Source of the DNA: Bauldia sp.
GTDB taxonomy: Bacteria; Pseudomonadota; Alphaproteobacteria; Rhizobiales; Kaistiaceae
Assembly: GCA_020853895.1 (NCBI GenBank)
Contig: JADYYB010000021.1
Span: forward strand, 1 to 32,433
Length of the DNA stretch: 32,433 bases
Direction of reading: 5' to 3'
The notes beneath the pieces were generated by a model. It ran no database searches and was not told the origin of the DNA. It saw only the letters and a list, made by a program, of their open reading frames with translations. Position numbers and translations under genes: made by a program. This document shows positions 12,141 through 32,433 of the stretch, in pieces. How positions within the stretch are numbered: position 1 is the stretch's first letter; the number at the start of each line of letters is the position of its first letter.

Positions 12141-13268
12141 ATGGAGAAGGTAGTAGAGTCACGCCGCAGCTTTTTGAAGCGCGGCGCGGTCGTCGCGGGC
12201 GCCGCTGCAGGCACGCTCGCTGCCCCGGCGCTCGGCCAGGCCCAGGAACAGACGGTCATCCGTATGCAGTCGTCCTGGGGCGCGTCGGAAATCTTCCAGG
12301 AAATGGCCCAGGATTTCTGCACCCGCGTCGAGGAGATGTCGGGCGGCCGTATCCGCATCGAGCTCCTGCCGGCCGGCTCGGTCGTCGGCGCGTTCCAGGT
12401 CATGGACGCGGTCAATGACGGCGTCATCGACGCCTGCCACCAGGTGCCGGTGTACTGGTACGCCAAGCACAAGGGCGCCTCGCTGTTCGGCACCGGTCCG
12501 GTGTTCGGCGGCGACGGCACCAACCTCCTCGCCTGGATCAAGTCCGGCGAGGGCCAGACCTTCTACAACGAGCTGACCCAGCAGATCCTCGGCCTCAACG
12601 TCGTCGGCTTCTTCGGGATGCCGATGCCGCAGCAGCCGTTCGGCTGGTTCAAGAACCCGGTCACCTCGGCCGCCGACGTGAACGGCCTCAAGTACCGCAC
12701 CGTCGGTCTCGCGGCCGACCTCATGGCCGCCATGGGCATGAGCGTGGTCCAGCTGCCGGGCGGCGAAATCGTCCCTGCCATGGAGCGCGGCGTCATCGAC
12801 GCCTTCGAGTTCAACAACCCGACCGCGGACCGCCGCTTCGGCGCCCAGGACGTGGCCAAGAACTACATGCTCGGCTCGTTCCACCAGGCCTCGGAGTGCT
12901 TCGAGATCAACTTCAACAAGGACGTCTTCGACGATCTCTCGGCAGACCTGCAGAAGATCATCGAGTACGGCGTGGAGGCCTCGGCCACCGCCAACCTCTC
13001 GAAGGCGATCGACAACTACTCGCGCGACCTCGAGGGCCTGATCAACGAGGACGGCGTGACGGTTCTCCGCACCCCGGCCGACGTGCTCGAGGTGCAGATC
13101 GCCGCCTGGGACGCGCTCATCGTCCAGCTCGAGGCGGACGATTTCATCCGTCGCGCCCTCGCCAGCCAGAAGGCCTGGACCGAGCGGACCGTGTTCTACA
13201 CGCTTCTCAACCAGGCCGATCTCCGTCTGGCCTACGACCACTACTTCCCGGGCAAGCTGCCCGCGTAA
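12141..13268 (+). CDS. dctP: TRAP transporter substrate-binding protein DctP
   Basis: A 375-residue periplasmic binding protein of the TRAP (tripartite ATP-independent periplasmic) family. Residues 8-33 are a Tat-type signal (SRRSFLKRG, hydrophobic run, AQA). The mature start TVIRMQSSWGASEIFQEMA, then LPAGSVVGAFQVMDAVNDGVIDA, and GLKYRTVG with the carboxylate-binding Arg all fit the family. The block ERGVIDAFEFNNPTADRRFG and the C-terminal helices fit the subgroup of 2-oxo-acid and lactate binders such as TakP, though the ligand cannot be fixed by reading. A hairpin follows the stop, often seen after binding-protein genes to raise their level. The next gene is the small permease; no large permease DctM is present. 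Confidence 0.92.
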   Translation: MEKVVESRRSFLKRGAVVAGAAAGTLAAPALGQAQEQTVIRMQSSWGASEIFQEMAQDFCTRVEEMSGGRIRIELLPAGSVVGAFQVMDAVNDGVIDACHQVPVYWYAKHKGASLFGTGPVFGGDGTNLLAWIKSGEGQTFYNELTQQILGLNVVGFFGMPMPQQPFGWFKNPVTSAADVNGLKYRTVGLAADLMAAMGMSVVQLPGGEIVPAMERGVIDAFEFNNPTADRRFGAQDVAKNYMLGSFHQASECFEINFNKDVFDDLSADLQKIIEYGVEASATANLSKAIDNYSRDLEGLINEDGVTVLRTPADVLEVQIAAWDALIVQLEADDFIRRALASQKAWTERTVFYTLLNQADLRLAYDHYFPGKLPA

Positions 13269-13374: not shown

Positions 13375-14331
13375 ATGCGCGTCACAGCTTTCATTCTCGG
13401 CCTCATCTCGGCGCTGATCATCTATTCGTTCAGCGATCAGAACGTGGTGCTCAACCGCATTTTCGGCGAGCTCGCCGATATCGACGGCGGCCCGGCGCGC
13501 TGGATCTATTTCGTGGTGCCGCTGATCCTTCTCGGCGGCGCCATCGCGACCTTCTTCGCCCACATCGTCGGCGCGCTGCTGCTGGCGGTCGGCGCGGTGG
13601 CCATCTCCTTCCTCGTCGGCTTCAACGGCCTTTCGACCGTGGCGGCGCTCCTGGCCGGTTTCGGCGCGCTCATGGCCTATGCCGCGCCGGGCGGGATGCG
13701 CGGCTATATCGACTTCGCCGATTCGCTGTCGCAGTGGGTCGGCAAGGGGTTCGCCTGGGCGATCCTGGTGATGACCTTCGGCGTCAGCTACGAGGTGTTC
13801 GTCCGCTATCTCTTCGGCGCCCCGACGCGCTGGTCGTTCGACGTGACCTTCATCATGTACGGCACGCTGTTCATGATGGGGGGGGCCTATACGCTCTCGC
13901 GCGACGGCATGGTGCGCGGCGACTTCCTCTACCGCCTCTGGCCGATCAAGGTGCAGGCGACCGTCGAGCTCGTGCTCTACGTGCTGTTCTTCTTCCCGGG
14001 CATCACCGCCCTCATCCTGGCGGGCTGGAAATACCAGGCGCGCGCCTGGCGCTTCGGCGAGGTCTCGATCTCGAGCCCGGCCGGCATCCCGGTGTTCCAG
14101 TTCAAGTCGATCATCGTCGCGGCCGGCGTGATCGTCTTCCTGCAGGGGCTGGCGCAGGTCTATCGCAGCATCATCGCGCTGCGCACCGGCGTCTGGCTGC
14201 GGGCCGGGGCCGACGTCGAGGAGACCGAGAAGGTGCTCATCGCCGAGCGCGAGGCGGCGGCTTCCCACCAGCATTCGGGCGAGCCGATCGACGTGGTTCT
14301 CCCGGCGGGCACGGAGCATCCTGCGCGCTAG
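13375..14331 (+). CDS. dctQ: TRAP small permease DctQ with extra membrane domain
   Basis: A 318-residue integral membrane protein. Residues about 109-270 match the four-helix DctQ family: VGKGFAWAILVMTFGVSYEVFVRYLFGAPTRWS, then MYGTLFMMGGAYTL, and the late QFKSIIVAAGVIVFLQGL. DctQ is normally about 160-180 residues. Here about 105 further residues come first, with hydrophobic segments at about 4-19, 43-62, 64-82 and 88-104. This predicts eight membrane helices. The acidic tail (275-318) is cytoplasmic by inference. The ATG at 13375 has a poor ribosome site. It follows dctP by 106 bases, after a hairpin. No dctM lies downstream, where an amidase gene comes instead. Confidence 0.85.
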   Translation: MRVTAFILGLISALIIYSFSDQNVVLNRIFGELADIDGGPARWIYFVVPLILLGGAIATFFAHIVGALLLAVGAVAISFLVGFNGLSTVAALLAGFGALMAYAAPGGMRGYIDFADSLSQWVGKGFAWAILVMTFGVSYEVFVRYLFGAPTRWSFDVTFIMYGTLFMMGGAYTLSRDGMVRGDFLYRLWPIKVQATVELVLYVLFFFPGITALILAGWKYQARAWRFGEVSISSPAGIPVFQFKSIIVAAGVIVFLQGLAQVYRSIIALRTGVWLRAGADVEETEKVLIAEREAAASHQHSGEPIDVVLPAGTEHPAR

Positions 14332-14368: not shown

Positions 14369-14416
14369 ATGACCTCGACCAACCGGCCCTTCCGGACCGC
14401 AAAGGCGCGCCCGTGA
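14369..14416 (+). CDS. Fifteen-codon open frame overlapping the amidase start
   Basis: ATG at 14369 opens a 15-residue frame whose TGA (14414-14416) overlaps the amidase GTG start (GTGA). This is the arrangement of translational coupling. The peptide (MTSTNRPFRTAKARP) has no recognisable family. It may be only a chance frame in the 81-base gap after dctQ. Confidence 0.25.
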   Translation: MTSTNRPFRTAKARP

Positions 14417-15780
14417 GCAAGCTCCCGGTCTCGCGTTTCGCCTGGGCGGCCGACGCCACCGCGAGCCTCCTCCTCGACAAGCTCGGTTCCGGACAGGTCC
14501 GGGCGGGCGAGGTCGCGGAGGTGATCATCGAGCGCACCGAGGCGCGCGAGCCGGAGATCGGCGCCTACAGCTTCTTCGATCCGGGAATGGTACGGGCGCA
14601 GGCCAAGGAGGCCGAGAAGCGCCGGATGATGGGCCACCCGCCGGGCGTCCTCAACGGCGTGCCGGTGGCGATCAAGGACATCGTCGACACCGCCGACATG
14701 CCGACCGAGAACGGCACCACGATCGACGCCGGAAGGCGGCCCAAGCGCGACGCCACGATCGTGAGCCGCCTCCGTGCCGCCGGCGCGGTGATCACCGGCA
14801 AGACCGTCACCGCCGAGCTCGCCTTCCTCCACCCCGGCAAGACGAGGAACCCGCACGACCTCACGCGCACGCCGGGCGGCTCCTCGTCGGGCTCGGCGGC
14901 CGCCGTCGCCGCCGGCATGGTGCCGCTCGCCATCGGCACGCAGACCAACGGATCGGTGATCCGCCCCGCCTCGTTCTGCGGGGTGGTCGGCTTCAAGCCG
15001 AGCCACGGACTCATCCCCCGCACCGGCATCCTCTCGATCTCGCGCGAGCTCGACACGGTCGGCGTGTTCGGGCGGTCGGTCGAGGACGTGGCGCTCCTTG
15101 GCGACGTGCTCGCGGGCTACGATCCGGTCGACCCGGACACCGCGCCGGTCGCCGCGCCGGAGCTGCACCGCATCGCCACCAGCAAGCCGCCGGTGCGGCC
15201 GGATCTGGTGGTCGCGGAGACCTATGTCTCCGATCGCGCCGAGCCGGCCACGCGGCAGGGGCTCGAGGAGCTGACCAAGGCGCTCGGCGAGGCGGCGTCC
15301 ACGGTCAAGCTCGCCGAGAGCTTCGCCGAGGCGCATGTCTTCCTGCGCAACCTGATGCTGGCCGGAATGGCGCGGAGTCTCGCCCATTACTACGACCATG
15401 CGAAGGAGCGCCTCAGCCCCAAGATGCAGGCGGCGATCGAGGAGGGGCGGGCCGTCAAGGCGGTCGACTTCATCAAGGCGCGCGACTGGCGCGTGGCCTT
15501 CCTCAACGCGCTCGACCAGGTGTTCCACCGGTTCGACGCGATCGTCACGCCGGCGGCGATCGGCGAGGCGCCGGTCGGGCTCGAATCGACCGGCGACCCG
15601 GCGTTCTGCACGCTGTGGAGCTATTGCGGCCTGCCCGCGGTCACGCTGCCGCTCCTCGAAGGGGCCAACGGGTTGCCGGTCGGCGTCCAGCTGGTCGGGC
15701 GGCCGGGCGGGGATGCCCGCTTGTTGCGGACCGCGCGGTGGCTTACTGAGTTCTTGGCGAAGGAGCCTGCGGCCGCCTAG
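14413..15780 (+). CDS. Amidase signature family hydrolase
   Basis: A 455-residue amidase with the Ser-cisSer-Lys triad in the expected spacing: K88 in VAIKD, S157 in GGSSSGS, and the nucleophile S181 in QTNGSVIRPA. Family members hydrolyse amides to a carboxylate and ammonia, or act as GatA in tRNA-dependent amidation. The lack of gatB/gatC neighbours and the isolated setting argue for a small-molecule amidase. There is no signal peptide, so it is cytoplasmic. The GTG start is chosen because the protein begins well before the domain and a short frame stops across it (GTGA). Its place between dctQ and a small membrane protein, in one direction, suggests it acts on or near the compound taken up by the transporter. 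Confidence 0.88.
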   Translation: MSKLPVSRFAWAADATASLLLDKLGSGQVRAGEVAEVIIERTEAREPEIGAYSFFDPGMVRAQAKEAEKRRMMGHPPGVLNGVPVAIKDIVDTADMPTENGTTIDAGRRPKRDATIVSRLRAAGAVITGKTVTAELAFLHPGKTRNPHDLTRTPGGSSSGSAAAVAAGMVPLAIGTQTNGSVIRPASFCGVVGFKPSHGLIPRTGILSISRELDTVGVFGRSVEDVALLGDVLAGYDPVDPDTAPVAAPELHRIATSKPPVRPDLVVAETYVSDRAEPATRQGLEELTKALGEAASTVKLAESFAEAHVFLRNLMLAGMARSLAHYYDHAKERLSPKMQAAIEEGRAVKAVDFIKARDWRVAFLNALDQVFHRFDAIVTPAAIGEAPVGLESTGDPAFCTLWSYCGLPAVTLPLLEGANGLPVGVQLVGRPGGDARLLRTARWLTEFLAKEPAAA

Positions 15781-16132: not shown

Positions 16133-16165
16133 AAAAGGCCGCGGCGAGCGATCGCCGCGGCCTTT
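16133..16165. terminator. Bidirectional intrinsic terminator
   Basis: AGGCCGCGGCGA (16136-16147) pairs perfectly with TCGCCGCGGCCT (16152-16163). T runs flank both sides (CCTTTCTC on plus, CCTTTTCG on minus). It separates the convergent TRAP/amidase unit and the aldolase pair. Confidence 0.9.
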
Positions 16166-16217: not shown

Positions 16218-17120
16218 CTAGGGGGTCGGCGGGGTGAGATCGAGCTCGGCCCCGTCGTTCATCAGGCTGGTCTCGGTCGGGCCCTGGAAGCAGGTGAACT
16301 CCGGACGCTCCCAGCGCCAGCCCGACGGGCCGCAGACCGGCTTGCCGGCGGCCTGAGCGGCCGCGATGATCTCGCTGATCAGCGACTCGTATTCCGGCTG
16401 GCCCTCGGCGTAGCCCGAGAAGTTGCCGATGTCGCCCGAGGCGGCGAACAGCGCGGTCACGCCGTCGAGGGCGGCGATCTCACGGGCGTTCTCGACACCC
16501 TGCAGCGTCTCGATCATGAGGATGAGCACGACGTTGCGGTTGAAGGTGGCGCGGTAGCCGCCCGGAACGTTGCTGTAGAAGCCCGGACCCTGGCCGCCAC
16601 CCGAGGAGTGACGGCCCATCGGCGGGAAGTAGGTCCAGTTGACTGCCTCCTGGGCCTCCTCGACAGTGTCGATCGTCGGAACGATCATCACCATCGCGCC
16701 GGCATCGAAGGCCTGCTGGAACTCCTTCTCCGCGGTGTACGGGATGCGGGTGCCATGCGCGGCCTGCGGACGCGGGCAGCGCGCCCACATGTCGCCGACG
16801 TCGGACCAGTCGTTCTGCTCGTGCTGCATCTCGGTCCAGGTGAAGTCGTAGCCCGAGTTGGCGGCGGCGCAGTAGACGTACGGGTCGTTGGTGCGGATGG
16901 TGATGCCGACGACATGCTCGCCGGCCTCCATCTTGGCGCGCACCGGATTCCAGACCTCGATCTCGCCGGAGACGTCGTAGCGCGGACCATAGGTCCAGCT
17001 GTCGGCCTGGAAGTCAGGGCCGACGGCCGGAACGCCGGACGTCGGACCCTGCTGGGCGTGGGCAAGGGTCGCAAGACCCATCATGGCACCAAAAGCGGTC
17101 GCAAAAGCGATCTTCTTCAC
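16218..17120 (-). CDS. Exported HpcH/HpaI-type aldolase, paralogue B
   Basis: A 300-residue protein with a clean Sec signal peptide (KK, hydrophobic run, cleavage after AHA at 20-22). The rest follows the HpcH/HpaI aldolase / citrate lyase beta fold, metal-dependent enzymes that split or join 4-hydroxy-2-oxo acids with pyruvate or a related oxo acid. Residues aligning with HpaI catalysis are present: H100 in TEMQHEQ, R125 in HGTRIPY, E204 in LMIETLQG and D230 in ASGDIGN. Four cysteines (84, 115, 263, 277) could form disulfides, in keeping with export. The start is a GTG after GGGAGGAATACAAAC. It is the second gene of a tandem pair, about 94 percent identical to its partner, and is separated from it by a terminator. 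A cytoplasmic location is unlikely given the signal. The substrate is unknown. Confidence 0.82.
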   Translation of the reverse strand: MKKIAFATAFGAMMGLATLAHAQQGPTSGVPAVGPDFQADSWTYGPRYDVSGEIEVWNPVRAKMEAGEHVVGITIRTNDPYVYCAAANSGYDFTWTEMQHEQNDWSDVGDMWARCPRPQAAHGTRIPYTAEKEFQQAFDAGAMVMIVPTIDTVEEAQEAVNWTYFPPMGRHSSGGGQGPGFYSNVPGGYRATFNRNVVLILMIETLQGVENAREIAALDGVTALFAASGDIGNFSGYAEGQPEYESLISEIIAAAQAAGKPVCGPSGWRWERPEFTCFQGPTETSLMNDGAELDLTPPTP

Positions 17121-17172
17121 GTTTGTATTCCTCCCAATGATCAGGGGGCAGTCGTTGCTGCCACAAAATAAA

Positions 17173-17203
17173 GGGGCGGGTGGGGGTCATCCCCACCCGC
17201 CCC
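17173..17203 (-). terminator. Intrinsic terminator between the aldolase paralogues
   Basis: The perfect 13-base stem GGGGCGGGTGGGG/CCCCACCCGCCCC (arms 17173-17185 and 17191-17203) is followed on the minus strand by TTTATTTTG. It lies just after the stop of paralogue A and before the start of paralogue B, so paralogue B depends on read-through or its own promoter. Confidence 0.9.
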
Positions 17204-17221
17204 AAAAGCGAGTTTATAGCC

Positions 17222-18118
17222 TTACGGAGGGGTAAGGGCCAGTTGCGCGCCCTGGTTCATCAGGCCGGTCTCGCCCGGGCCCTGGAAGCAGGTGAACTCC
17301 GGACGCTCCCAGCGCCAGCCCGACGGGCCGCAAACCGGCTTGCCGGCGGCCTGGGAGGCCGCGATGATCTCGCTGATCAGCGACTCGTATTCCGGCTGGC
17401 CCTCGGCGTAGCCCGAGAAGTTGCCGATGTCGCCGGAAGCGGCGAAGAGGGCGGTGACGCCATCCAGCGCAGCGATCTCACGGGCGTTCTCAACGCCCTG
17501 CAGCGTCTCGATCATGAGGATGAGCACGACGTTGCGGTTGAAGGTGGCGCGGTAGCCGCCCGGAACGTTGTTGTAGAAGCCCGGACCCTGACCGCCACCG
17601 GAGGAGTGACGGCCCATCGGCGGGAAGTAGGTCCAGTTGACCGCTTCCTGGGCTTCCTCGACCGTGTCGATGGTCGGCACCATCACAACCATGGCGCCGG
17701 CGTCGAAGGCCTGCTGGAATTCCTTCTCGGTGGTGTAGGCGATACGCGTGCCGTGCATGGCCTGCGGACGCGGGCAGCGGACCCACATGTCGGCCACGTC
17801 GGCCCAGCTGTTCTGCTCATGCTGCATCTCGGTCCAGGTGAAGTCGTAGCCCGAGTTGGCGGCGGCGCAGTAGACATACGGATCGTTGGTGCGGATGGTG
17901 ATGCCGATGACGTGCTCGCCGGCTTCCATCTTGGCGCGCACCGGGTTCCAGACCTCGATCTCGCCGGAAACGTCGTAGCGCGGACCATAGGTCCAGCTGT
18001 CGGCCTGGAAGTCCGGGCCGACGGCCGGGACGCCCGAAGTCGGGCCCTGCTGGGCGTGTGCGAGGGTCGACAGACCCATCATCGCGCCGAATGCGGTCGC
18101 GAGAGCAATCTTCTTCAC
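17222..18118 (-). CDS. Exported HpcH/HpaI-type aldolase, paralogue A
   Basis: A 298-residue protein nearly identical to paralogue B: I count 19 substitutions over 298 aligned residues. The signal peptide, the four cysteines and all the catalytic-type residues (H100, R125, E204, D230) are the same. Differences concentrate at residues 104-146, near the active-site entrance, and at 282-294 in the C-terminal helix region that contributes to subunit contacts in the family. This suggests recent duplication with drift of substrate or partner choice. The start is a GTG after GGGAGGAGAAAAAA, a strong ribosome site. It is the promoter-proximal gene of the minus-strand pair and diverges from the hydroxyacid dehydrogenase gene. 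The enzymatic call is from fold and residues; activity outside the cytoplasm is inferred. Confidence 0.83.
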   Translation of the reverse strand: MKKIALATAFGAMMGLSTLAHAQQGPTSGVPAVGPDFQADSWTYGPRYDVSGEIEVWNPVRAKMEAGEHVIGITIRTNDPYVYCAAANSGYDFTWTEMQHEQNSWADVADMWVRCPRPQAMHGTRIAYTTEKEFQQAFDAGAMVVMVPTIDTVEEAQEAVNWTYFPPMGRHSSGGGQGPGFYNNVPGGYRATFNRNVVLILMIETLQGVENAREIAALDGVTALFAASGDIGNFSGYAEGQPEYESLISEIIAASQAAGKPVCGPSGWRWERPEFTCFQGPGETGLMNQGAQLALTPP

Positions 18119-18428: not shown

Positions 18429-19418
18429 ATGGCCAGCAAGACCGAGCGACCGGCACGGGTCGTCTTCCTCGACCGTGACACTCTCTCGCCCGAGACGCGC
18501 CTTCGCACTCCCGACTTTCCGCACGAACTCACGGTCCACGGCAAGACCTCGGCCGCCGAGGTCGCCGACCGCATCGTCGACGCCGAGATCGTCATCACCA
18601 ACAAGGCGCCGGTGCGCGGGCCCGAGCTCGAGAGGGCCAAGAACCTCAAGCTGATCGCGGTGGCGGCGACCGGCACCGACATCATCGACCTCAAGGCCGC
18701 CAAGGCGCACGGGGTGACGGTCTCCAACATCCGCAACTACGCGGTCCACACCGTCCCCGAGCACACCTTCTCGCTCATCCTCCTCCTCCGCCGCAGCCTC
18801 ATCGCCTACCGGGATTCGGTGAAGGCCGGGCGCTGGATCGAGGCCAACCAGTTCTGTTTCTTCGACCATCCGATCCGCGACCTCTCCGGCTCCACGCTCG
18901 GCGTGGTCGGCGACGGGGTGCTCGGCAAGGCGGTCGCCAAGCTCGGCGAGGCCTTCGGGATGAAGGTCATCTTCTCGGACTACAAGGGCACCACCGGGAT
19001 GGGCCCGCTCTACACCCCGTTCGACGAGGTGATGCGGCGGAGCGACATCATCACCCTGCACTCGCCGCTGATGCCCTCGACCCGCAACATGATCTCCACG
19101 CGCGAGTTCGCGATGATGGAGCGGAAGCCGCTCCTCATCAACACGGCGCGCGGCGGGCTCGTCGACGAGGCCGCGCTCTACGAGGCGCTGACGAAGGGGC
19201 AGGTGAGCGGGGCCGGCTTCGACGTGGTGACGGTCGAGCCGCCGCCGATGGACCACCCGATGATGAAGCTCCTCGAGCTGCCGAACTTCATCCTCACCCC
19301 GCATATCGCCTGGGCGAGCCAGGAGGCGATCCAGGGCCTCGCCGATCAGCTGGTCGACAATATCGACGCCTTCATGAAGGGCGCGCCGCGTAACGTGGTC
19401 ACGCCGGAAGGGTACTAG
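18429..19418 (+). CDS. D-2-hydroxyacid dehydrogenase (glyoxylate/hydroxypyruvate reductase type)
   Basis: A 329-residue NAD(P)-dependent enzyme that interconverts a 2-oxo acid and a D-2-hydroxy acid. The Rossmann motif is GVVGDGVLG (158-166), a variant of the usual G-x-G-x-x-G with D in the second place. The catalytic set is R241 in NTARGGLVDE, E270 in VVTVEPPP and H292 in TPHIAW. The N-terminal substrate half has the family's TGTD and HTVPEH elements. The TVEPPP region resembles glycerate dehydrogenases and glyoxylate/hydroxypyruvate reductases. That fits the nearby hydroxypyruvate isomerase and tartronate semialdehyde reductase, but the exact substrate is inferred. AAAAGGAC precedes the ATG. 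It diverges from the aldolase pair. Confidence 0.87.
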   Translation: MASKTERPARVVFLDRDTLSPETRLRTPDFPHELTVHGKTSAAEVADRIVDAEIVITNKAPVRGPELERAKNLKLIAVAATGTDIIDLKAAKAHGVTVSNIRNYAVHTVPEHTFSLILLLRRSLIAYRDSVKAGRWIEANQFCFFDHPIRDLSGSTLGVVGDGVLGKAVAKLGEAFGMKVIFSDYKGTTGMGPLYTPFDEVMRRSDIITLHSPLMPSTRNMISTREFAMMERKPLLINTARGGLVDEAALYEALTKGQVSGAGFDVVTVEPPPMDHPMMKLLELPNFILTPHIAWASQEAIQGLADQLVDNIDAFMKGAPRNVVTPEGY

Positions 19419-19530: not shown

Positions 19531-19860
19531 CTAGGCCGGCGGGGCCTCGAGCGGGATGTTGTTCTCCGTCAGGATGGCGTCGATCTGGCCCTTGAGGAAG
19601 GTGTGCTGGACCGACACCTCGCGGATGCGGGCGTAGACGAGCGCCTTGTCGGCATCGGTGAATTCGGCCGAGCTGGTGATGGCGCGGCGAATGGCGCGGA
19701 TGCAGTCTTCCTCGTACTGCATGGTGACGCCGCACGGGCCGTTCACCGAGGCGACCACCGGCGTGGCGGCCTGGGCAAAGGCGGCGGTGCCCGACAGGGC
19801 CGTGAAGCCGGCGGCGACGGCGGCCAGCGAGCCCATTCTCACAAGCGTGGTCAGATTCAT
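19531..19860 (-). CDS. Small secreted protein of unknown function
   Basis: A 109-residue protein. AAAGGAGC lies before the ATG. Residues 1-30 are a Sec signal peptide ending at AFA. The mature part of about 80 residues is mostly helical by composition and carries two cysteines, in GPCGVTMQYEEDCIRAIRRAI, ten residues apart, likely a disulfide. A conserved-looking stretch FTDADKALVYARIREVSVQHTFLKGQIDAIL follows. I do not recognise the family. It is convergent with the dehydrogenase gene and its upstream region carries two 15-base direct repeats. Confidence 0.7.
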   Translation of the reverse strand: MNLTTLVRMGSLAAVAAGFTALSGTAAFAQAATPVVASVNGPCGVTMQYEEDCIRAIRRAITSSAEFTDADKALVYARIREVSVQHTFLKGQIDAILTENNIPLEAPPA

Positions 19861-19912: not shown

Positions 19913-20097
19913 CTCGCGCCCCCTCGGGCGCTAATTGCGGCGCGGAGGCGGGAAGTGTCAAGGCGATTGGCGCCCTGACAACAATCCCGGGCGGGTCATG
20001 GTTGCCTGCCTCGCGAGCGGCCCGGATCGGCGATTGACGGATGGCGTTCGAGGCGGCACAAGGCAGCGCCCACGCCATCCTGCCCGAGGAAAGTCCG

Positions 20098-20877
20098 ATG
20101 CCGCGCTTTGCCGCCAACCTCACCATGCTGTACGGCGAGCACCAGTTCCTCGACCGCTTCGCGGCGGCGGCCGCCGACGGCTTCGAAGGCGTCGAATATC
20201 TCTTCCCCTACGATTTCCCGAAAGAGGCGCTCGTCGAGCGGCTGCAGCAACACCGCCTCACTCAGGTCCTCCACAATCTCCCGGCCGGCGACTGGGCGGG
20301 CGGGGAGCGCGGCATCGCCTGCCTGCCCGACCGAGCGGCGGAGTTCCGCGAGGGGGTGGCGCGGGCCATCGACTACGCGACCGCGCTCGGCTGCGGCCAG
20401 GTCAACTGCCTCTCGGGCATCGCGCCGGCCGGCGTTTCCGCCGACCTCGTGCGCCAGACCTTCGTCGACAATCTCCGCTACGCGGCCGGCGAGCTGAAGA
20501 AGGCGGGGATAAAGCTCCTCGCCGAGGCGGTGAACACCCGCGACATCCCCGGCTTCTACCTCAACAAGAGCACCGACACCGAGGCGATCCTTGCCGAGGT
20601 CGGCTCCGACAACCTCTTCATCCAGTACGATTTCTACCACACCCAGGTGATGGAGGGCGACATCACCAACAAGTTCAAGCGGCTCAAGGACAGGATCGCG
20701 CACGTGCAGATCGCGGACAATCCGGGCCGCAACGAGCCGGGGACCGGCGAGATCAACTACGGATACATCTTCAGGATGCTCGACCAGGAAGGCTATTCCG
20801 GCTGGGTCGGCTGCGAGTATCGACCGGCGACCAAGACGAGCGAAGGGCTGGGCTGGCTCAAGAAGCTCGCCGTCTAG
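20098..20877 (+). CDS. hyi: Hydroxypyruvate isomerase
   Basis: A 259-residue TIM-barrel isomerase that interconverts hydroxypyruvate and tartronate semialdehyde. The start is the ATG after GAGGAAAG; an earlier in-frame ATG adds 19 unlikely residues. The start PRFAANLTMLYGEHQFLDRF is typical of Hyi. The four metal-site residues expected from the E. coli enzyme fall at the same numbers: E143, D178, Q204 and E240. The block DNPGRNEPGTGEINY is the family's conserved loop. A close relative, 2-oxo-tetronate isomerase (OtnI), cannot be fully excluded. It is followed after 33 bases by the tartronate semialdehyde reductase gene, the usual pairing for glyoxylate use. Glyoxylate carboligase and glycerate kinase are not in the window. 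Confidence 0.9.
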   Translation: MPRFAANLTMLYGEHQFLDRFAAAAADGFEGVEYLFPYDFPKEALVERLQQHRLTQVLHNLPAGDWAGGERGIACLPDRAAEFREGVARAIDYATALGCGQVNCLSGIAPAGVSADLVRQTFVDNLRYAAGELKKAGIKLLAEAVNTRDIPGFYLNKSTDTEAILAEVGSDNLFIQYDFYHTQVMEGDITNKFKRLKDRIAHVQIADNPGRNEPGTGEINYGYIFRMLDQEGYSGWVGCEYRPATKTSEGLGWLKKLAV

Positions 20878-20910: not shown

Positions 20911-21798
20911 ATGAAGGTCGGATTCATCGGCGTCGGCATCATGGGGCGTCCCATGGCGGGCCACCTCCTCACCGGCGGGCACGAGGTCACCGTCTTCGAC
21001 GTGAAGCCGCTGCCGGCCGAGCTGACCGAGAAGGGAGCGATCGCCGCCAAGTCGGGCAAGGAAGTCGCCGAGAAGAGCGAGGTCATCATCATCATGGTGC
21101 CCAACACGCCCGACGTGGAGGCCGTGCTCTTCACCAAGGGCGGGGTCGCCGAGGGTCTTGCCAACGGCAAGACGGTGGTCGACATGAGCTCGATCTCGCC
21201 GATCGCCACCAAGGGCTTCGCCAAGCGCGTGGGGGAGCTCGGCGCCGACTATGTCGACGCGCCGGTCTCGGGCGGGGAGGTGGGCGCCAAGAACGCCACC
21301 CTCACCATCATGTGCGGCGGCACCGAGGAAGCCTTCAACCGCGTGAAGCCGCTCTTCGAGCTGATGGGCAAGAACATCACGCTGGTCGGGCCGGTGGGCG
21401 ATGGCCAGGTGACCAAGGTCGCCAACCAGATCATCGTCGCGCTCAACATCGAGGCGGTGGCCGAGGCCCTTCTCTTCGCCTCCAAGGCCGGCGCCGATCC
21501 GGCCAAGGTGCGCAGCGCGCTGATGGGCGGCTTCGCCTCCTCGAAGATCCTCGAGGTGCATGGCGAGCGCATGATCAAGCGCACCTTCGACCCGGGCTTC
21601 CGCATCGAGCTGCACCAGAAGGACCTCAACCTCGCGCTCGAATCGGCGCGGGCGCTGAAGATGTCCCTCCCCAACACCTCGACCACGCAGGAGCTCTTCA
21701 ACGCCGCCGCCGCCCAGGGCGGCTCGGCGTGGGACCACTCGGCGCTGGTCAGGGTGCTGGAAACCCTCGCCCAGCACGAGGTGGCGAAGAAGGCCTAG
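20911..21798 (+). CDS. glxR: Tartronate semialdehyde (2-hydroxy-3-oxopropionate) reductase
   Basis: A 295-residue beta-hydroxyacid dehydrogenase that reduces tartronate semialdehyde to D-glycerate with NAD(P)H. The Rossmann motif is GFIGVGIMGRPMA at 4-16. The substrate-binding block DAPVSGGEVGA is at 116-126, and the catalytic Lys is K169 in GQVTKVANQ. Length and motifs match GlxR/GarR. CGGAG lies before the ATG. It is co-transcribed with hyi, 33 bases downstream, and ends at a strong terminator. GarR-type enzymes in other bacteria work with HpcH/HpaI-type aldolases (GarL) that release tartronate semialdehyde and pyruvate. That makes the exported aldolases nearby a possible source of the substrate, though they are in a different compartment. 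Confidence 0.92.
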   Translation: MKVGFIGVGIMGRPMAGHLLTGGHEVTVFDVKPLPAELTEKGAIAAKSGKEVAEKSEVIIIMVPNTPDVEAVLFTKGGVAEGLANGKTVVDMSSISPIATKGFAKRVGELGADYVDAPVSGGEVGAKNATLTIMCGGTEEAFNRVKPLFELMGKNITLVGPVGDGQVTKVANQIIVALNIEAVAEALLFASKAGADPAKVRSALMGGFASSKILEVHGERMIKRTFDPGFRIELHQKDLNLALESARALKMSLPNTSTTQELFNAAAAQGGSAWDHSALVRVLETLAQHEVAKKA

Positions 21799-21950: not shown

Positions 21951-23327
21951 ATGTTCCTGTCGATCGCCACGACGCACTCCCCCGCCACCGATCTCGGCTA
22001 CCTCCTCCACAAGCATCCGGAGCGGGTGCATGAGACCGAGCTGCCGTTCGGGAAGGCCTATCTCTTCTACCCGGCGGCGGGTCTGGAGCGCTGCGAGGCG
22101 GCGCTGGTCCTCGACGTCGATCCGATCGGGCTGGTGCGTGGCCGTGGGCAGGCGGAGGGGCTGCAGGACCAGTACGTGAACGACCGGCCCTATGCCGCGT
22201 CCTCGCTCCTCTCGGTGGCGATCACCCGCACGCTGCGGAGCGCGATGGCGGGCTCGTCCAAGGAGCGGCCCGAGCTCGCGGAGACCGAGATCCCGCTCGA
22301 GGCGCGGGTGACGCCGCTGCCGGCGCGCGGCGGGGAGGGGATGGTGCGGTCGCTGTTCGAGCCGCTGGGCTGGACGGTCGAGGCGGAGCCGATTGCGGGC
22401 GCCGGCGGGGCCGCGAGCCGCTACGTGTCGCTGCGGCTCAGCGGCCGGAAGAGGCTCCGCGAGCTGCTGACCCATCTCTACGTGCTCATCCCGGTGCTCG
22501 ACGACGACAAGCACTACTGGGTCGGCGAGGACGAGGTGACCAAGCTGCTCGACCGCGGCAAGGGCTGGCTGGAAGGCCATCCAGCGCGCGAGACGATCGT
22601 CGGACGGTACCTCAAGCATCGCCGTGCCCTGACAAGGGTTGCGCTAGCCCGCCTGGTGCCGGAGGACGAGGAGGAGGCGCCGGCCGACGAGGCCCGTCCC
22701 GCGCCCGAGGACAGCATCGAGGCGCCGATCCGCCTCAACGACCGGCGCCACGAGAGGGTCGTGAACGCCCTCAGGGAGGCCGGCGCCAAGGTGATCGCCG
22801 ATCTCGGCTGCAGCGAGGGCAAGCTCCTCGCGCGCCTCGTGAAGGAGCGCTGGGTCGAGGCGCTGATCGGGGTCGACGCGTCGGCGCGCGCGCTCGAATT
22901 CGCCTCGAAGCGGCTCCGGCTGAAGGAGCCGGGCGGTCCGCCTGAGGGCCGCGTCACGCTCCTCCACGGCGCGCTGACCTATCGCGACCGGCGCTGGAGC
23001 CACGCCGACGCGGCGGTGCTGGTCGAGGTGATCGAGCATCTCGACGCCGACCGCCTGCCGGCGCTGACGCGGGTCGTCTTCGGCGATGCGCGCCCGCGGA
23101 CGGTGATCGTGACCACGCCCAACGCCGAGTACAACGCGCTCTTCCCGACGCTCGCCGCCGGCGCCTTCCGCCATCCCGATCACCGCTTCGAGTGGACGAG
23201 GGGCGAGTTCGTCGCCTGGGCGCGCGAAATCGAGCGCACCCACGGCTACACGGCCGCTTTCGCCGATATCGGAGAGGCCGACGAGGAGCGGGGACCGCCG
23301 ACGCAGATGGCGGTGTTCACGCGATGA
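21951..23327 (+). CDS. hen1: RNA 3'-terminal ribose 2'-O-methyltransferase Hen1
   Basis: A 458-residue bacterial Hen1. It methylates the 2'-OH of the 3' end at a break in RNA before ligation, so the repaired RNA resists a second cut. Residues 1-250 are the bacterial-specific N-terminal domain that activates Pnkp. The C-terminal methyltransferase has the SAM motif DLGCSEG at 284-290. Its metal-binding set reads EVIEH at 359-363 (E359, E362, H363) with H408/H411 in RHPDHRFEWTR. The ATG has no strong ribosome site nearby. The TGA overlaps the pnkp start (ATGA), so the two are translationally coupled. Length and partner are as expected for the known RNA-repair system. Confidence 0.93.
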   Translation: MFLSIATTHSPATDLGYLLHKHPERVHETELPFGKAYLFYPAAGLERCEAALVLDVDPIGLVRGRGQAEGLQDQYVNDRPYAASSLLSVAITRTLRSAMAGSSKERPELAETEIPLEARVTPLPARGGEGMVRSLFEPLGWTVEAEPIAGAGGAASRYVSLRLSGRKRLRELLTHLYVLIPVLDDDKHYWVGEDEVTKLLDRGKGWLEGHPARETIVGRYLKHRRALTRVALARLVPEDEEEAPADEARPAPEDSIEAPIRLNDRRHERVVNALREAGAKVIADLGCSEGKLLARLVKERWVEALIGVDASARALEFASKRLRLKEPGGPPEGRVTLLHGALTYRDRRWSHADAAVLVEVIEHLDADRLPALTRVVFGDARPRTVIVTTPNAEYNALFPTLAAGAFRHPDHRFEWTRGEFVAWAREIERTHGYTAAFADIGEADEERGPPTQMAVFTR

Positions 23328-25900
23328 GAGCGCCGGACATCACCCAAATCGACATCCCCGACTTCGCGCTGGTCGTGCTGATCGGCGCGACCGGCTCGGG
23401 AAAGTCGACCTTCGCGGCCAAGCACTTCCTGCCGACCGAGATCGTCTCGTCCGACCGGGCGCGCGGGCTCGTCGCCGACGACGAGACCGACCAGTCGGCG
23501 ACGGCCGACGCCTTCGAGCTGGTGGCGGCGATCGCCGGCAAGCGCCTCAAGAACCGCCGCCTCGCGGTGATCGACGCCACCAATGTCCGCGCGTCGGATC
23601 GCAAGGGCTGGATCGACCTCGCGCGGCGCTGGCACGCACTGCCGGTGGCGATCGTCCTCGATCCGGGCGTGGATGTCTGCGTGGAGCGCAACAAGTCGCG
23701 GCCCGACCGCCAGTTCGGCGCGGAGGTGGCGCGGCGCATGACGGGCGAGATAAGGCGCGGGCTCCGCGGCCTCCAGAAGGAGGGTTTCCGACAGGTCTGG
23801 CGCTTCGGGTCGGTCGAGGGGATGGAGGCCGCCACCATCGAGCGGCGGCCGCTGTGGACCGACAAGCGGAGCGAGACCGGCGGGTTCGACATCATCGGCG
23901 ACGTGCATGGCTGCGCGGACGAGCTGGAGACGCTGCTGCGGACGCTCGGCTACGGCGTGACATGGCCGGTGGAGAAGGGTGCGCCGCCCTCGGTCACCGC
24001 GCCGGCCGGGCGGCGCGCGGTGTTCGTCGGCGACCTCGTCGACCGCGGGCCGCGGACGCCGGACGTGCTGCGCATCGCCAAGGCGATGGTCGACGCCGGG
24101 ATCGCGTTGGCGGTGAACGGCAATCACGACCGGAAGCTCCTCCGCTGGCTGGACGGGCGCGGCGTCAAGGTCGCCCACGGCCTCGCCCAGTCGATCGCGC
24201 AGCTCACGGGCGAGAGCGAGGCGTTCCGGAAGAGCATCCGCGACTTCCTCGACGGGCTCCTCAGCCATGCCTGGCTCGACCGCGGGCGCCTGGTCGTCGC
24301 CCATGCCGGCCTCAAGGAGGAGATGATCGGCCGCGCCTCGCCCGCCGTCCGCGAGTTCGCTCTTTACGGCGAGACGACCGGGGAGACGGACGAGTTCGGC
24401 CTCCCGGTGCGCGCCGACTGGGCGCAGGCCTATCGCGGCGACACAACGGTAGTCTACGGGCACACGCCGGTGCTCGAGCCGGCGTGGGTCAACAATACGC
24501 TCTGCATCGACACCGGCTGCGTGTTCGGCGGCAAGCTCACCGCGCTGCGCTGGCCGGAGCGGGAGCTGGTCAGCGTGCCGGCGGCCGCCGTCTACGCGGA
24601 GCCGACGCGGCCGCTCGCGGTGCGGAGCGCGGAGCGATCGGCACAAGCCGAGGCCGACGACCTCCTCGACATGGAGGACGTTTCCGGCCGGCGCCGGGTG
24701 GAGACCGAGCTCCGCGGCCGGATCGTCGTCGCGGAGGAGAACGCCGCGGCGGCGCTCGAGGTGATGAGCCGCTTCGCCATCGCGCCGCAATGGCTCGCCT
24801 ATCTGCCGCCCACCATGTCGCCGGCCGAGACCAGCCGCGCCGAGGGCTGGCTCGAGCGGCCCGAGGAGGCCTTCGCACACTATCGTTCGCGCGGCGTCGG
24901 CGAGGTCGTCTGCGAAGAGAAGCACATGGGCTCGCGGGCCGTGATCGCGCTGTGCCGCGACAACGCCGTGGCCCGCTCGCGCTTCGGCATTGTCGGGCCG
25001 GAGACCGGCGCGATCTGGACGCGCACGGGCCGGGCGTTCTTCGCGGCCGCGGCGCTCACCGAAGGGCTGCTGGCGCGGCTCCGCGTGGCGGCGGAGTCGG
25101 CGGGGCTGTGGACCGAGCTCGGCAGCGACTGGCTCCTTCTCGACGCGGAGATCATGCCGTGGTCGGCGAAGGCGGGCGCGCTGATCGACAGCCAGTACGC
25201 GCCGGTTGCGACCGCGTCACGCGCGGGCCTGTCGGCGGCGCTCGGTGCGCTCCAGACCGGGGCCGGGCGCGGGCTCGACCTCGCCGGGCTGGCGGAGAAG
25301 TTCGCCGGGAGACTGGGTCGCGCGGAAGCCTACGCCGATGTCTGGCAACCCTATGTCTGGCCGGTCGGCGGGCTCGAGGATCTTCGGGTCGCGCCGTTCC
25401 ACTTCCTCGCCAGCGAGGGGAAGGTCTGGTTCGACCATGATCACACCTGGCACATGGGCGTCGCCGACCGCCTCGCCGAGACGGGTGACGAGGTCATCAC
25501 CCGCACGCGCTGGCGCCTCGTCGATCTCGCCGACGAGGGCGCGGTCGCCGACGCGATCCGCTGGTGGGAAGAGGCGACCGGTTCGGGTGCCGAGGGCATG
25601 GTGGTGAAGCCGCGTGCCTTCGTCCCGCGCGGGGAGAAGGGGCTGCTGCAGCCGGCGATCAAGGTCCGCGGACGGCAGTATCTCCGCATCATCTACGGCC
25701 CGGAATACGACGCGCCGGAGCACCTCGAGCGTCTCCGCGAGCGCGGCCTCGGCGGCAAGCGCAACCTCGCCATCCGCGAGTTCGCCCTCGGCCACGAGGG
25801 TCTGAAGCGCCTCGTCGCCCGCGAGCCGCTCCGCCGTGTCCACGAATGCGTCTTCGCCGTGCTGGCGCTGGAGAGCGAGCCGATCGACCCAAGGCTGTGA
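23324..25900 (+). CDS. pnkp: Polynucleotide kinase-phosphatase-ligase Pnkp (RNA repair)
   Basis: An 858-residue three-domain enzyme that heals and seals broken RNA ends, near the roughly 870 of the Clostridium thermocellum protein. The kinase domain has P-loop GATGSGKST at 21-29 and adds 5' phosphate. The metallophosphatase domain has DVHG at 193-196, GDLVDRGP at 236-243, GNHD at 266-269 and a late YGHTP, and removes 2',3'-cyclic phosphate. The adenylyltransferase/ligase domain has its nucleophile K533 in EEKHMGSR, with EGMVVKP at 757-763 and QPAIKVRGR at 776-784. The start is the ATG that overlaps the hen1 stop. Alone, such ligase domains adenylate poorly and need Hen1. All catalytic motifs are intact, so the system should be active against tRNA-cutting toxins. 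Confidence 0.95.
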   Translation: MRAPDITQIDIPDFALVVLIGATGSGKSTFAAKHFLPTEIVSSDRARGLVADDETDQSATADAFELVAAIAGKRLKNRRLAVIDATNVRASDRKGWIDLARRWHALPVAIVLDPGVDVCVERNKSRPDRQFGAEVARRMTGEIRRGLRGLQKEGFRQVWRFGSVEGMEAATIERRPLWTDKRSETGGFDIIGDVHGCADELETLLRTLGYGVTWPVEKGAPPSVTAPAGRRAVFVGDLVDRGPRTPDVLRIAKAMVDAGIALAVNGNHDRKLLRWLDGRGVKVAHGLAQSIAQLTGESEAFRKSIRDFLDGLLSHAWLDRGRLVVAHAGLKEEMIGRASPAVREFALYGETTGETDEFGLPVRADWAQAYRGDTTVVYGHTPVLEPAWVNNTLCIDTGCVFGGKLTALRWPERELVSVPAAAVYAEPTRPLAVRSAERSAQAEADDLLDMEDVSGRRRVETELRGRIVVAEENAAAALEVMSRFAIAPQWLAYLPPTMSPAETSRAEGWLERPEEAFAHYRSRGVGEVVCEEKHMGSRAVIALCRDNAVARSRFGIVGPETGAIWTRTGRAFFAAAALTEGLLARLRVAAESAGLWTELGSDWLLLDAEIMPWSAKAGALIDSQYAPVATASRAGLSAALGALQTGAGRGLDLAGLAEKFAGRLGRAEAYADVWQPYVWPVGGLEDLRVAPFHFLASEGKVWFDHDHTWHMGVADRLAETGDEVITRTRWRLVDLADEGAVADAIRWWEEATGSGAEGMVVKPRAFVPRGEKGLLQPAIKVRGRQYLRIIYGPEYDAPEHLERLRERGLGGKRNLAIREFALGHEGLKRLVAREPLRRVHECVFAVLALESEPIDPRL

Positions 25901-29933: not shown

Positions 29934-31184
29934 ATGAGCCTTCCGCCCTTCGTGGATTTCTACCCGTTCGACCCGCCGCCGGAGGCCCTCTACGAGGCGC
30001 TCGGGCGGCTCCGGTCCGTGGCGCCGATCGTGCGCTCGCGGCCGATCATGCCGCCGCGCGACAGCACGGTCTATCTCCTCGGCCGCGAGGCCTGCGAGAA
30101 GGCGCTGGTGCACCCCCAGCTCGTGCAGGCGCCGGAGGGGGCGTATCAGGAGCTCCGGGCGATCTTCAGGGAGCACAACGCGATCTTCCGCGTGTTCTCA
30201 CAGACGATGCTGTTCATCGATCCGCCCGAGCACACGCGCCTCCGCCGCCCGCTGCAGGCGATGTTCTCGAGCGCGCGTGTCGCCGCGCTCGACAACTGGA
30301 TGACGATCCGGGCGCGCGAGCTGGCGCGGCGCTCGCTCGAGGCCGGCCGGTTCGACGTGGTCAGGGATGTCGCCGAGCCGTTCGTGCTCGAGGTTCTCTA
30401 CAAGATCCTCGGCCTTGCGCCGCGCGACGCAGCCTGGGTCCGGAAGCGCATGGCCTATGTGACCGACGCGCTCGATTTCACCACCGACCGGCCCTACCCC
30501 TTCGCCGAGGCGGAGGAGGCCGGGCAGGAGCTCGTCGACTATATCGAGGAGGCGCTGCGCGGCGCGCGGCCGCCGGTCGACACGGTGCTCGCCGCGATGC
30601 TCGAGCTCGAGCGGAGCGGGGAATGGGCGCATGACGACGTGGTCGCCTCCTGCATGCTCTTCCTCTTCGCCGGGCAGGAGACGGTGATCGATTCGATCGG
30701 CTCGTTCGCGCTGGCGCTCGAGGAGCGGCCGGAGAAGCGCGAGGAGGTGCTGCGCGCCACCGACGAGACCTGGCCGCCGATCGTGGAGGAACTGCTCCGT
30801 TTCGACGCGCCGGTCTCCTATGTCGCGCGCGTCGCCGCGGGCGACCTCGAGCTCGGCGGGTACACGATCGAGGACGGGCAAACCGTGGTCTCCTGCCTCG
30901 GCGCGGCCAACCGCGACCCGGCGTGGTGCGAGCGGCCGGACGAGCTCGACTTCGCCCGGCCGATGCGCCGGTCGCTGGCCTTCGGCACCGGCCTCCACAC
31001 CTGTCTCGGCCAGCACGTCGCGCGGCTCGAGCTCCGGGCGGCGCTGAAGGCGCTCTATGTCGACGCGCCGGACTGGCGCGTCCGCACCGAGGGAATCGTC
31101 TACCGGCCCAACGCGCTCCTTCGCGGGCTGACTAGCGCGCCGGCCGAGGCTGCGGTAGCCAGCGGCAAGCGGCACACGGCCTGA
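29934..31184 (+). CDS. Cytochrome P450 (first of a tandem pair)
   Basis: A 416-residue soluble bacterial P450, a haem monooxygenase that needs a ferredoxin or similar electron donor. The start is the ATG at 29934, because the frame upstream is not conserved-looking. Seen: the helix C region FIDPPEHTRLRRPLQAMFS (94-112), the I-helix oxygen-activating site AGQETV (246-251; Q replaces the commoner H or T), the ExxR pair E286-R289 in VEELLRF, and the haem loop FGTGLHTCLGQ with the cysteine ligand C357. No ferredoxin or reductase gene lies beside it. It is followed after 35 bases by a paralogue, so the two are probably co-transcribed. The substrate is unknown. Confidence 0.93.
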   Translation: MSLPPFVDFYPFDPPPEALYEALGRLRSVAPIVRSRPIMPPRDSTVYLLGREACEKALVHPQLVQAPEGAYQELRAIFREHNAIFRVFSQTMLFIDPPEHTRLRRPLQAMFSSARVAALDNWMTIRARELARRSLEAGRFDVVRDVAEPFVLEVLYKILGLAPRDAAWVRKRMAYVTDALDFTTDRPYPFAEAEEAGQELVDYIEEALRGARPPVDTVLAAMLELERSGEWAHDDVVASCMLFLFAGQETVIDSIGSFALALEERPEKREEVLRATDETWPPIVEELLRFDAPVSYVARVAAGDLELGGYTIEDGQTVVSCLGAANRDPAWCERPDELDFARPMRRSLAFGTGLHTCLGQHVARLELRAALKALYVDAPDWRVRTEGIVYRPNALLRGLTSAPAEAAVASGKRHTA

Positions 31185-31219
31185 GAGTCGGCGAGAAGCG
31201 GACGGGCGCACGGAGCTTG

Positions 31220-32433
31220 ATGATGAACTCGATGGCCTACGCGCTCTTCGACCCGCGGAATTTCGGCCCGGAAGACAGCCGCCACGCCACCTTCACGCGG
31301 CTCCGCGAGCACTCGCCGGTCATCCTCGGCGCGCCCGGCGTCAACGTCACGGAGCGCTGCTATTACGTCTTCACGCGCGAGCTGATGGAGAAGGCTCTCC
31401 TTCATCCCGCGCTGATGCACGCCCCGCCGGGCGCCTATCAGGAGATCCGCGCGATCCTCAAGCAGGACCCGGTGAGGAAGATCTTCCTCTCCGGGATGCT
31501 GTTCGCCGATCCGCCGGAGCACACGCGGCTCCGGAAGCCGCTGCAGCCGATGTTCTCGGGCTCGCGGCTGGCCGCGCTCGAGGAGGGGATGCTGACGCGG
31601 CTCCGCGCGCTGATGGGCGAGGCGCGCGAGCGTGGGTCGTTCGACGCGGTCGACGACGTCGCCGTGCCGTTCGTGATCGAGTTCCTGTTCCAGGTGATGG
31701 GTTTTCCGCACGCCGATCCGCACTGGCTCAAGGAGCAGAGCGAGATCGTGGCGCACGGGCTCGATTTTTCGACCGAAGCGTTCCCGGGGATCGGCGAAGC
31801 ACTCGGCAACATCGTCGCCTATGTCGAGGATGCGGTGAGCCGGCCGGCGCCCGATGGCTCGGTGCTGGCGGCGATGCAGGAGATCACCGCGCGCGGCGAC
31901 TGGAGCCACGACGACCTCGTCGCCTCGTGCGTCCTCTTCCTCAACGCCGGGCAGGAGACGGTGATCGACGCGATGGGCAACGCCTTCCTCGCGCTCGAGC
32001 AGAATCCAACGGAGCGACGGTCGCTGCGCGGGCGGCCCGATCTCTGCGCGCCGGCCGCGGAAGAGCTGCTGCGCTTCGAGCCGCCGGTCTATTTCACCGG
32101 CGAGCGGGTGGCGGCTTCCGACGTCGATCTCGGCACGCTCAAGGTCGCGGCGGGGGAGTCGGTGGTGTGCGTGCTGGCGAGCGCCAACCGCGACCCGGCC
32201 TGGATCGACCGCCCGGACGCGCTCGACTTCACGCGGCAGGGCGTCCGCCGCTCGATGGCCTTCGGCACCGGGCTGCACACCTGCATCGGGCAGCATCTGG
32301 CGCGGCTCGAGATGCGGACGCTCCTCCAGGTGCTCTACGCCGAGTCGCCCGAGTTCGGGATCAATGAGAGCGGGGTCCGCCACCGGCCGAACATCATCTA
32401 TCGCGGTCTGACCAAGGCGCCGGCCACGTTCGC
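31220..32433 (+). CDS. Cytochrome P450 (second of the pair, runs off the window)
   Basis: A P450 of at least 404 residues with no stop before the window ends. The start is ATG ATG after CGGAG; either Met fits. Seen: the FADPPEHTRLRKPLQPMFSGSRL block, the I-helix AGQETVID, the ExxR pair in AEELLRFEPP, and the haem loop FGTGLHTCIGQ with the cysteine ligand. It aligns along its length with the first P450, and both share the unusual AGQETVID helix, so it arose by tandem duplication. Divergence is substantial, unlike the aldolase pair, so the two probably have different substrates or steps. Only the last few residues are likely to be missing. Confidence 0.92.
   Translation, partial: MMNSMAYALFDPRNFGPEDSRHATFTRLREHSPVILGAPGVNVTERCYYVFTRELMEKALLHPALMHAPPGAYQEIRAILKQDPVRKIFLSGMLFADPPEHTRLRKPLQPMFSGSRLAALEEGMLTRLRALMGEARERGSFDAVDDVAVPFVIEFLFQVMGFPHADPHWLKEQSEIVAHGLDFSTEAFPGIGEALGNIVAYVEDAVSRPAPDGSVLAAMQEITARGDWSHDDLVASCVLFLNAGQETVIDAMGNAFLALEQNPTERRSLRGRPDLCAPAAEELLRFEPPVYFTGERVAASDVDLGTLKVAAGESVVCVLASANRDPAWIDRPDALDFTRQGVRRSMAFGTGLHTCIGQHLARLEMRTLLQVLYAESPEFGINESGVRHRPNIIYRGLTKAPATF

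Follow-up and report, generated by a model that had tools for sequence, protein, structure and literature searches.

The tandem aldolase genes

The window, by which we mean the whole stretch of 32,433 nucleotides analyzed here, carries two genes for HpcH/HpaI-type aldolases in tandem on the minus strand (copies A and B, Table 1). The first-pass annotation, made from the sequence alone, had described two such aldolases with signal peptides at this place, and both ORFs were recovered there. Between the two copies, identity is 94% at the protein level and 91% at the DNA level. Each has a strong Shine-Dalgarno sequence (GGGAGGAG and GGGAGGA) with the GTG start 6 to 8 bases downstream, and the GTG falls exactly at the signal peptide KKIA..ATAFGAMMGL.TLAHA, then QQ. 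The N-terminus is that of a classical Sec signal, with two lysines, a hydrophobic core and AHA, followed by the mature QQGPTSG. Signal peptides were called by a simple rule of our own together with conservation, rather than by SignalP. By this rule the aldolase has a cleavable N-terminal signal peptide and is free of a lipobox and of any other membrane segment. A membrane anchor or a missing signal, the outcomes that the first-pass annotation had held against export, thus find no counterpart: neither a lipobox nor a second hydrophobic segment was seen.

Divergence between the copies is low at nonsynonymous sites (dN 0.034, dS 0.36, dN/dS 0.095). A dN/dS of about 0.09 indicates purifying selection, with both copies retained in functional form. 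Contig C6 of this genome carries a third copy that is more distant from them. The hairpin between the convergent genes is probably a bidirectional terminator following copy B.

Table 1. Genes and features around the tandem aldolases, in window positions.
Feature	Position	Strand	Remarks
TRAP solute-binding protein (DctP)	12141..13268	+	Nearest solved structures TakP and 7ug8 (2-oxoacid binders)
TRAP small membrane subunit (DctQ)	13375..14331	+	DctM absent beside DctQ
Amidase	14413..15780	+	Normally the fourth gene of the TRAP module in relatives
Strong hairpin	16134..16165	.	Between convergent genes; z = -5.85
Exported HpaI-type aldolase, copy B	16218..17120	-	300 aa; GTG start; tandem duplicate, 94% identical
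Exported HpaI-type aldolase, copy A	17222..18118	-	298 aa; GTG start; signal peptide ~residues 1-22
D-2-hydroxyacid dehydrogenase, hydroxypyruvate/glyoxylate reductase type	18429..19418	+	Divergent from copy A; G013 ortholog in same place, 70%
Small exported Cys protein, proposed partner subunit	19531..19860	-	109 aa; homolog of the C-terminal domain fused to aldolase
Hydroxypyruvate / 2-oxotetronate isomerase (Hyi/OtnI)	20041..20877	+	Over NCBIfam cut-offs
Tartronate semialdehyde reductase (GlxR/GarR)	20911..21798	+	Over TIGR01505 cut-off

Fold, active site and cysteines

Both copies match the Pfam family HpcH_HpaI (PF03328) at an E-value of ~1e-14, with 53-54 bits against a gathering score of 25. 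The NCBIfam models for GarL, HpaI and YfaU match with E-values between 1e-18 and 1e-22, and the scores stay under the equivalog cut-offs: 71-78 bits against 393-407 for GarL (TIGR03239 / NF007849), and 70 bits against 369 for HpaI (TIGR02311). An AlphaFold model of the mature protein, run as a monomer with a 46-sequence alignment, has a mean pLDDT of 92.7 and a pTM of 0.90. It is a TIM barrel of the HpaI type, with Z-scores between 28 and 30 to GarL (30.4), SwHKA (29.8), HpaI (29.1) and YfaU (28.4), whereas relatives of citrate lyase score only about 18.

GarL, the 2-dehydro-3-deoxygalactarate aldolase (1dxe), shares the fold over 243 aligned residues at 2.6 A with 22% identity, far under the equivalog cut-off. 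The likeness extends to the adjoining genes for tartronate semialdehyde and glycerate metabolism. E. coli GarL is cytosolic. SwHKA, the hydroxyketoacid aldolase of Sphingomonas wittichii (6r62, 7nuj, 7o5r), aligns over 240 residues at 2.3 A with ~25% identity. Neither the signal region nor the ~30-residue N-terminal extension of the window aldolase has an equivalent in its chains, and SwHKA lacks the partner domain described below. The class II pyruvate aldolases HpaI/HpcH and YfaU (2v5j, 4b5s, 7et8, 2vws) have the same fold and the same catalytic and metal-binding His, Arg, Glu and Asp at equal spacing; the window aldolase differs from them in having QH rather than EH at the catalytic His and an RS rather than an RG loop, and in being exported.

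Across 46 diverse members of the exported clade described below, Q99, H100, R125, S172, E204 and D230 are invariant, and D139 is present in 44. In the alignments, H100 and R125 match the catalytic H45 and R70 of HpaI, and E204 and D230 match the metal ligands of HpaI enzymes (E151/D177 in AbHpaI, E145/D171 in SwHKA). Since Q99 and S172 also match Q43 and S116' of SwHKA, the complete SwHKA metal-site set (Q43, H44, R69, S116', E145, D171) is present. The first-pass annotation had noted the retained His, Arg, Glu and Asp and four cysteines in the two copies, and these prove to be conserved far beyond them. Its preference for an enzyme over a binding protein is likewise favored by the invariance of the predicted catalytic and metal-binding residues and by the high-confidence HpaI-like model. 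It had also considered that the metal ligands might lie apart; judged by alignment, E204 and D230 appear to occupy the metal-ligand positions.

The best sequence-profile match is the citrate synthase SbnG (4tv5, E-value 3e-35), which shares the fold and the RS motif. This match raises another reaction on oxaloacetate-like acids, either a decarboxylation or an SbnG-like condensation, and SwHKA also cleaves oxaloacetate to pyruvate. SbnG itself uses acetyl-CoA and works in the cytoplasm. We consider such a reaction very improbable here, as a synthase that depends on acetyl-CoA could hardly work outside the cytoplasm and no siderophore genes were seen nearby.

The cysteines point away from the cytoplasm. 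All 46 members have C84 and C115. C263 and C277 occur jointly in 39 and are jointly absent from 7, a pattern as of a disulfide pair. Two cytosolic relatives in the same alignment lack all four. Two disulfides, C84-C115 and C263-C277, would stabilize the aldolase outside the cytoplasm, the pairing being suggested by this pattern. In a deeper exported subgroup (L049, L085, L160-L162; profile E-values of ~1e-60 to 1e-67) the second cysteine pair is absent and the C-terminus is different.

The exported clade and a small helical protein

Close relatives of the window aldolase are found in Acidobacteriota, Gemmatimonadota and Alphaproteobacteria. At an E-value of 1e-40 or lower, matches occur in 80 of 193 genomes from the class of G490 (titled Acidobacteria), 22 of 96 from the order of G491 (Alphaproteobacteria) and 7 of 198 from the class of G488 (Gemmatimonadetes). 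Among 398 genomes sampled from the window's own phylum, its own genome is the only one with a match at this threshold. A tree calculated from 67 exported and 28 cytosolic rows separates the exported aldolases from the others at a branch with 100/100 support; the stem leading to them is long, at 1.95 changes per site. The root of this clade is uncertain, since the cytosolic rows were taken from genomes related to the window's own and several of them sit on long branches.

Our signal rule flagged 67/68 exported members compared with 3/28 cytosolic relatives, the latter being weak false flags. The single exported member that it missed, MRDALVGLTLAGLLALLPLAPRAQA, has a signal by eye. The whole clade carries signal peptides, which rules out that they are a peculiarity of this one duplicated gene. 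The export claimed in the first-pass annotation for the two copies is supported by this distribution and by the covarying cysteines. The spread of the clade over several phyla, the small protein described below and the hydroxypyruvate/glycerate neighbors go beyond that annotation. We found no report of exported HpcH/HpaI proteins in a search that lacked most subscription journals. The fold and the chemistry are established; that literature contains no description of the exported clade, of its pattern of disulfides or of the partner domain.

Gemmatimonadota and many Acidobacteriota have aldolases with a C-terminal extension. This extension, a helical domain, is homologous to the small exported protein encoded near the tandem genes in the window. 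Small homologous exported proteins also stand beside the aldolases of the C6 paralog and of G013 (same family). The extension and the small proteins share a motif with YExDC in which two cysteines are spaced by nine or ten residues, and helices follow it. In a model of a fused protein the domain consists of helices (pLDDT ~80-93) behind a flexible linker. With the whole fused model as query, Foldseek returned matches to the aldolase domain only. The small protein had no match above cut-off in Pfam, PHROGs or NCBIfam.

The association with exported aldolases is close. Searched with a profile of the tail, ~880 neighbor proteins yielded, besides fused aldolases, only these three small proteins (E-values 2.1e-10, 7.4e-9 and 1.4e-5; the next is 0.055). 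With a combined profile, strong matches (8e-27 or better) in 16 whole genomes are confined to exported-aldolase loci: the window's genome has two and G013 one. The sole other match is weak (0.0028). Four relatives that lack the exported aldolase had zero combined-profile matches to the domain. The sampled owners of the domain, fused or separate, form one clade with support of 97/52, which is weak by one of the two measures, and most other exported aldolases do not have it. There is thus good evidence, from homology and gene position, that the small protein is a partner subunit of the aldolase, which it would be expected to bind.

A dedicated partner domain could also belong to a protein that has left catalysis. 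The exported aldolase fold may have been reused to bind or sense 2-oxoacids, with the small helical protein as a signaling or docking partner. The long stem of the clade would fit such a change of role, as would the fact that the literature searched, which took in few subscription journals, describes no earlier case of a pyruvate aldolase that is exported. We think it improbable: a mere binder would not need the catalytic His and Arg plus both metal ligands across phyla, and the six invariant positions and D139 are kept as described above.

Neighboring genes and proposed function

Beyond the divergent dehydrogenase, which closely resembles glycerate dehydrogenase and hydroxypyruvate reductase, lie the small protein, the hydroxypyruvate isomerase and the tartronate semialdehyde reductase. 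The G013 locus is similar: its aldolase (50%) is likewise accompanied by this divergent dehydrogenase (70%) and by the small protein, and a glycerate 2-kinase is also present. The activities at the two loci have their place in the route by which hydroxypyruvate and tartronate semialdehyde reach 2-phosphoglycerate, as in glyoxylate and galactarate pathways. We ruled out that the dehydrogenase is confined to genomes with the aldolase; it is present in 24/101 relatives, and the shared feature is adjacency only. The Acidobacteriota aldolase loci have no consistent conserved neighbor, and their flanking genes vary widely. A search for plasmids found none.

From the export signal, fold, conserved residues, partner domain and gene context established computationally, we favor the reading that copies A and B are Sec-exported 2-oxoacid aldolases of the HpaI/GarL/SwHKA type, with disulfides and a divalent metal, which probably work with a partner module. 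The aldolase activity, its substrate and its direction would be those expected from the family. By analogy with it, E204 and D230 would hold a Mg/Mn-type metal, to which the carboxylate and carbonyl of the 2-oxo acid would bind. Polarization and protonation would fall to R125 and the H100/Q99 pair, together with a metal-bound water. A 4-hydroxy-2-oxo acid would be split into an aldehyde and either pyruvate or hydroxypyruvate, or would be formed from them. The SwHKA-like site together with the hydroxypyruvate genes makes hydroxypyruvate or pyruvate the likely oxo acid, and we place the reaction outside the cytoplasm because of the signal peptides and cysteines. In the window's branch the aldolase would act with the small exported helical module, which is the separate 109-aa protein in the window and a fused C-terminal domain in other members. 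The C3 products would probably be imported and then converted to glycerate by the neighboring hydroxypyruvate reductase, isomerase and tartronate semialdehyde reductase. Against this explanation, tartronate semialdehyde or hydroxypyruvate formed in the periplasm could be lost through diffusion, and the gene context differs elsewhere, with widely varying neighbors in Acidobacteriota and aldose 1-epimerases on the flanks in one order of Alphaproteobacteria.

These epimerases have signal-like N-termini and flank the aldolase in 11 loci. There are 20 such genes, often paired (L132, L133, L138-L143). They bear on a rather unlikely alternative in which the exported enzyme is a sugar-acid aldolase, acting on 2-keto-3-deoxy aldonates or aldarates as GarL and YfaU do, as the last step of an oxidation route in the periplasm; a dehydrogenase and a lactonase would make the acid and the aldolase would cut it. 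This alternative overlaps with the favored one because the substrate is the main difference. GarL has the highest Z-score. SMP-30-type lactonases lie near the exported aldolase in two loci: the C6 paralog is near an SMP-30/gluconolactonase and a PQQ dehydrogenase, and another homolog is in a gene run with an exported SMP-30. Set against these points, no dehydratase that makes 3-deoxy acids was recognized beside the aldolase, and no lactonase is among the window neighbors examined.

The TRAP genes nearby bear on the import step that the favored explanation includes. The nearest solved relative of the window DctP is TakP (2hzk), a 2-oxoacid-binding TRAP protein. In the alignment the DctP keeps Arg177, Tyr100, Gln156 and Glu214 of TakP, and differs from it in having Phe for Trp215 and Gln for Glu240. 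The DctP is, however, a neighbor only and stands outside the aldolase itself. A role for the TRAP transporter as a dedicated partner of the aldolase is weakened by eight relatives in which DctP-DctQ-DctM-amidase occurs without the aldolase, DctM standing between DctQ and the amidase. It is further weakened by DctP orthologs in ~12/101 genomes and by the missing DctM at the window. With the TRAP-amidase genes separate from the aldolase in eight genomes and DctM missing here, the import step is weakly supported, and the window TRAP genes are at most weakly linked to the aldolase. The sole recognized DctM of the window's genome is elsewhere, on contig C46. In relatives of this genome the four genes are a conserved module (L191-L198), which suggests import of an amide or a 2-oxoacid-like product.

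The aldol cleavage of 2-oxo acids is usually regarded as cytoplasmic. The exported clade is conserved and its active-site residues are intact, which implies that carbon skeletons may be broken or assembled in the periplasm of some bacteria; such chemistry would alter models of sugar-acid and 2-oxoacid use in Acidobacteriota and Alphaproteobacteria. We tentatively entertain, as a possibility, an undescribed family of periplasmic C-C lyases in several phyla, consisting of an exported, disulfide-stabilized SwHKA-like aldolase and an obligate small helical subunit, either fused to it or made from a gene of its own, with import of C3 compounds only. If true, this would be a two-part system in which 2-oxoacid aldol chemistry takes place outside the cytoplasm and the C3 products alone are imported. 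A class II pyruvate aldolase with disulfides would also be of interest to biocatalysis.

Several other genes on the plus strand of the window are of separate interest. An intradiol-dioxygenase-like protein (1019-1627) has a twin-arginine type signal (RRRFLKG) and, from its sequence, looks like another normally cytoplasmic enzyme type that is apparently exported. It is preceded by an exported protein with two LCCL-domain matches (201-914). A Hen1-type methyltransferase directly followed by a Pnkp kinase-phosphatase-ligase (21951-25900; Hen1_L E-value 2e-100, PNKP_ligase 4e-171) forms a bacterial RNA repair pair. Two adjoining, related cytochrome P450-like genes lie at 29934-32433, the second of which runs off the end of the contig.
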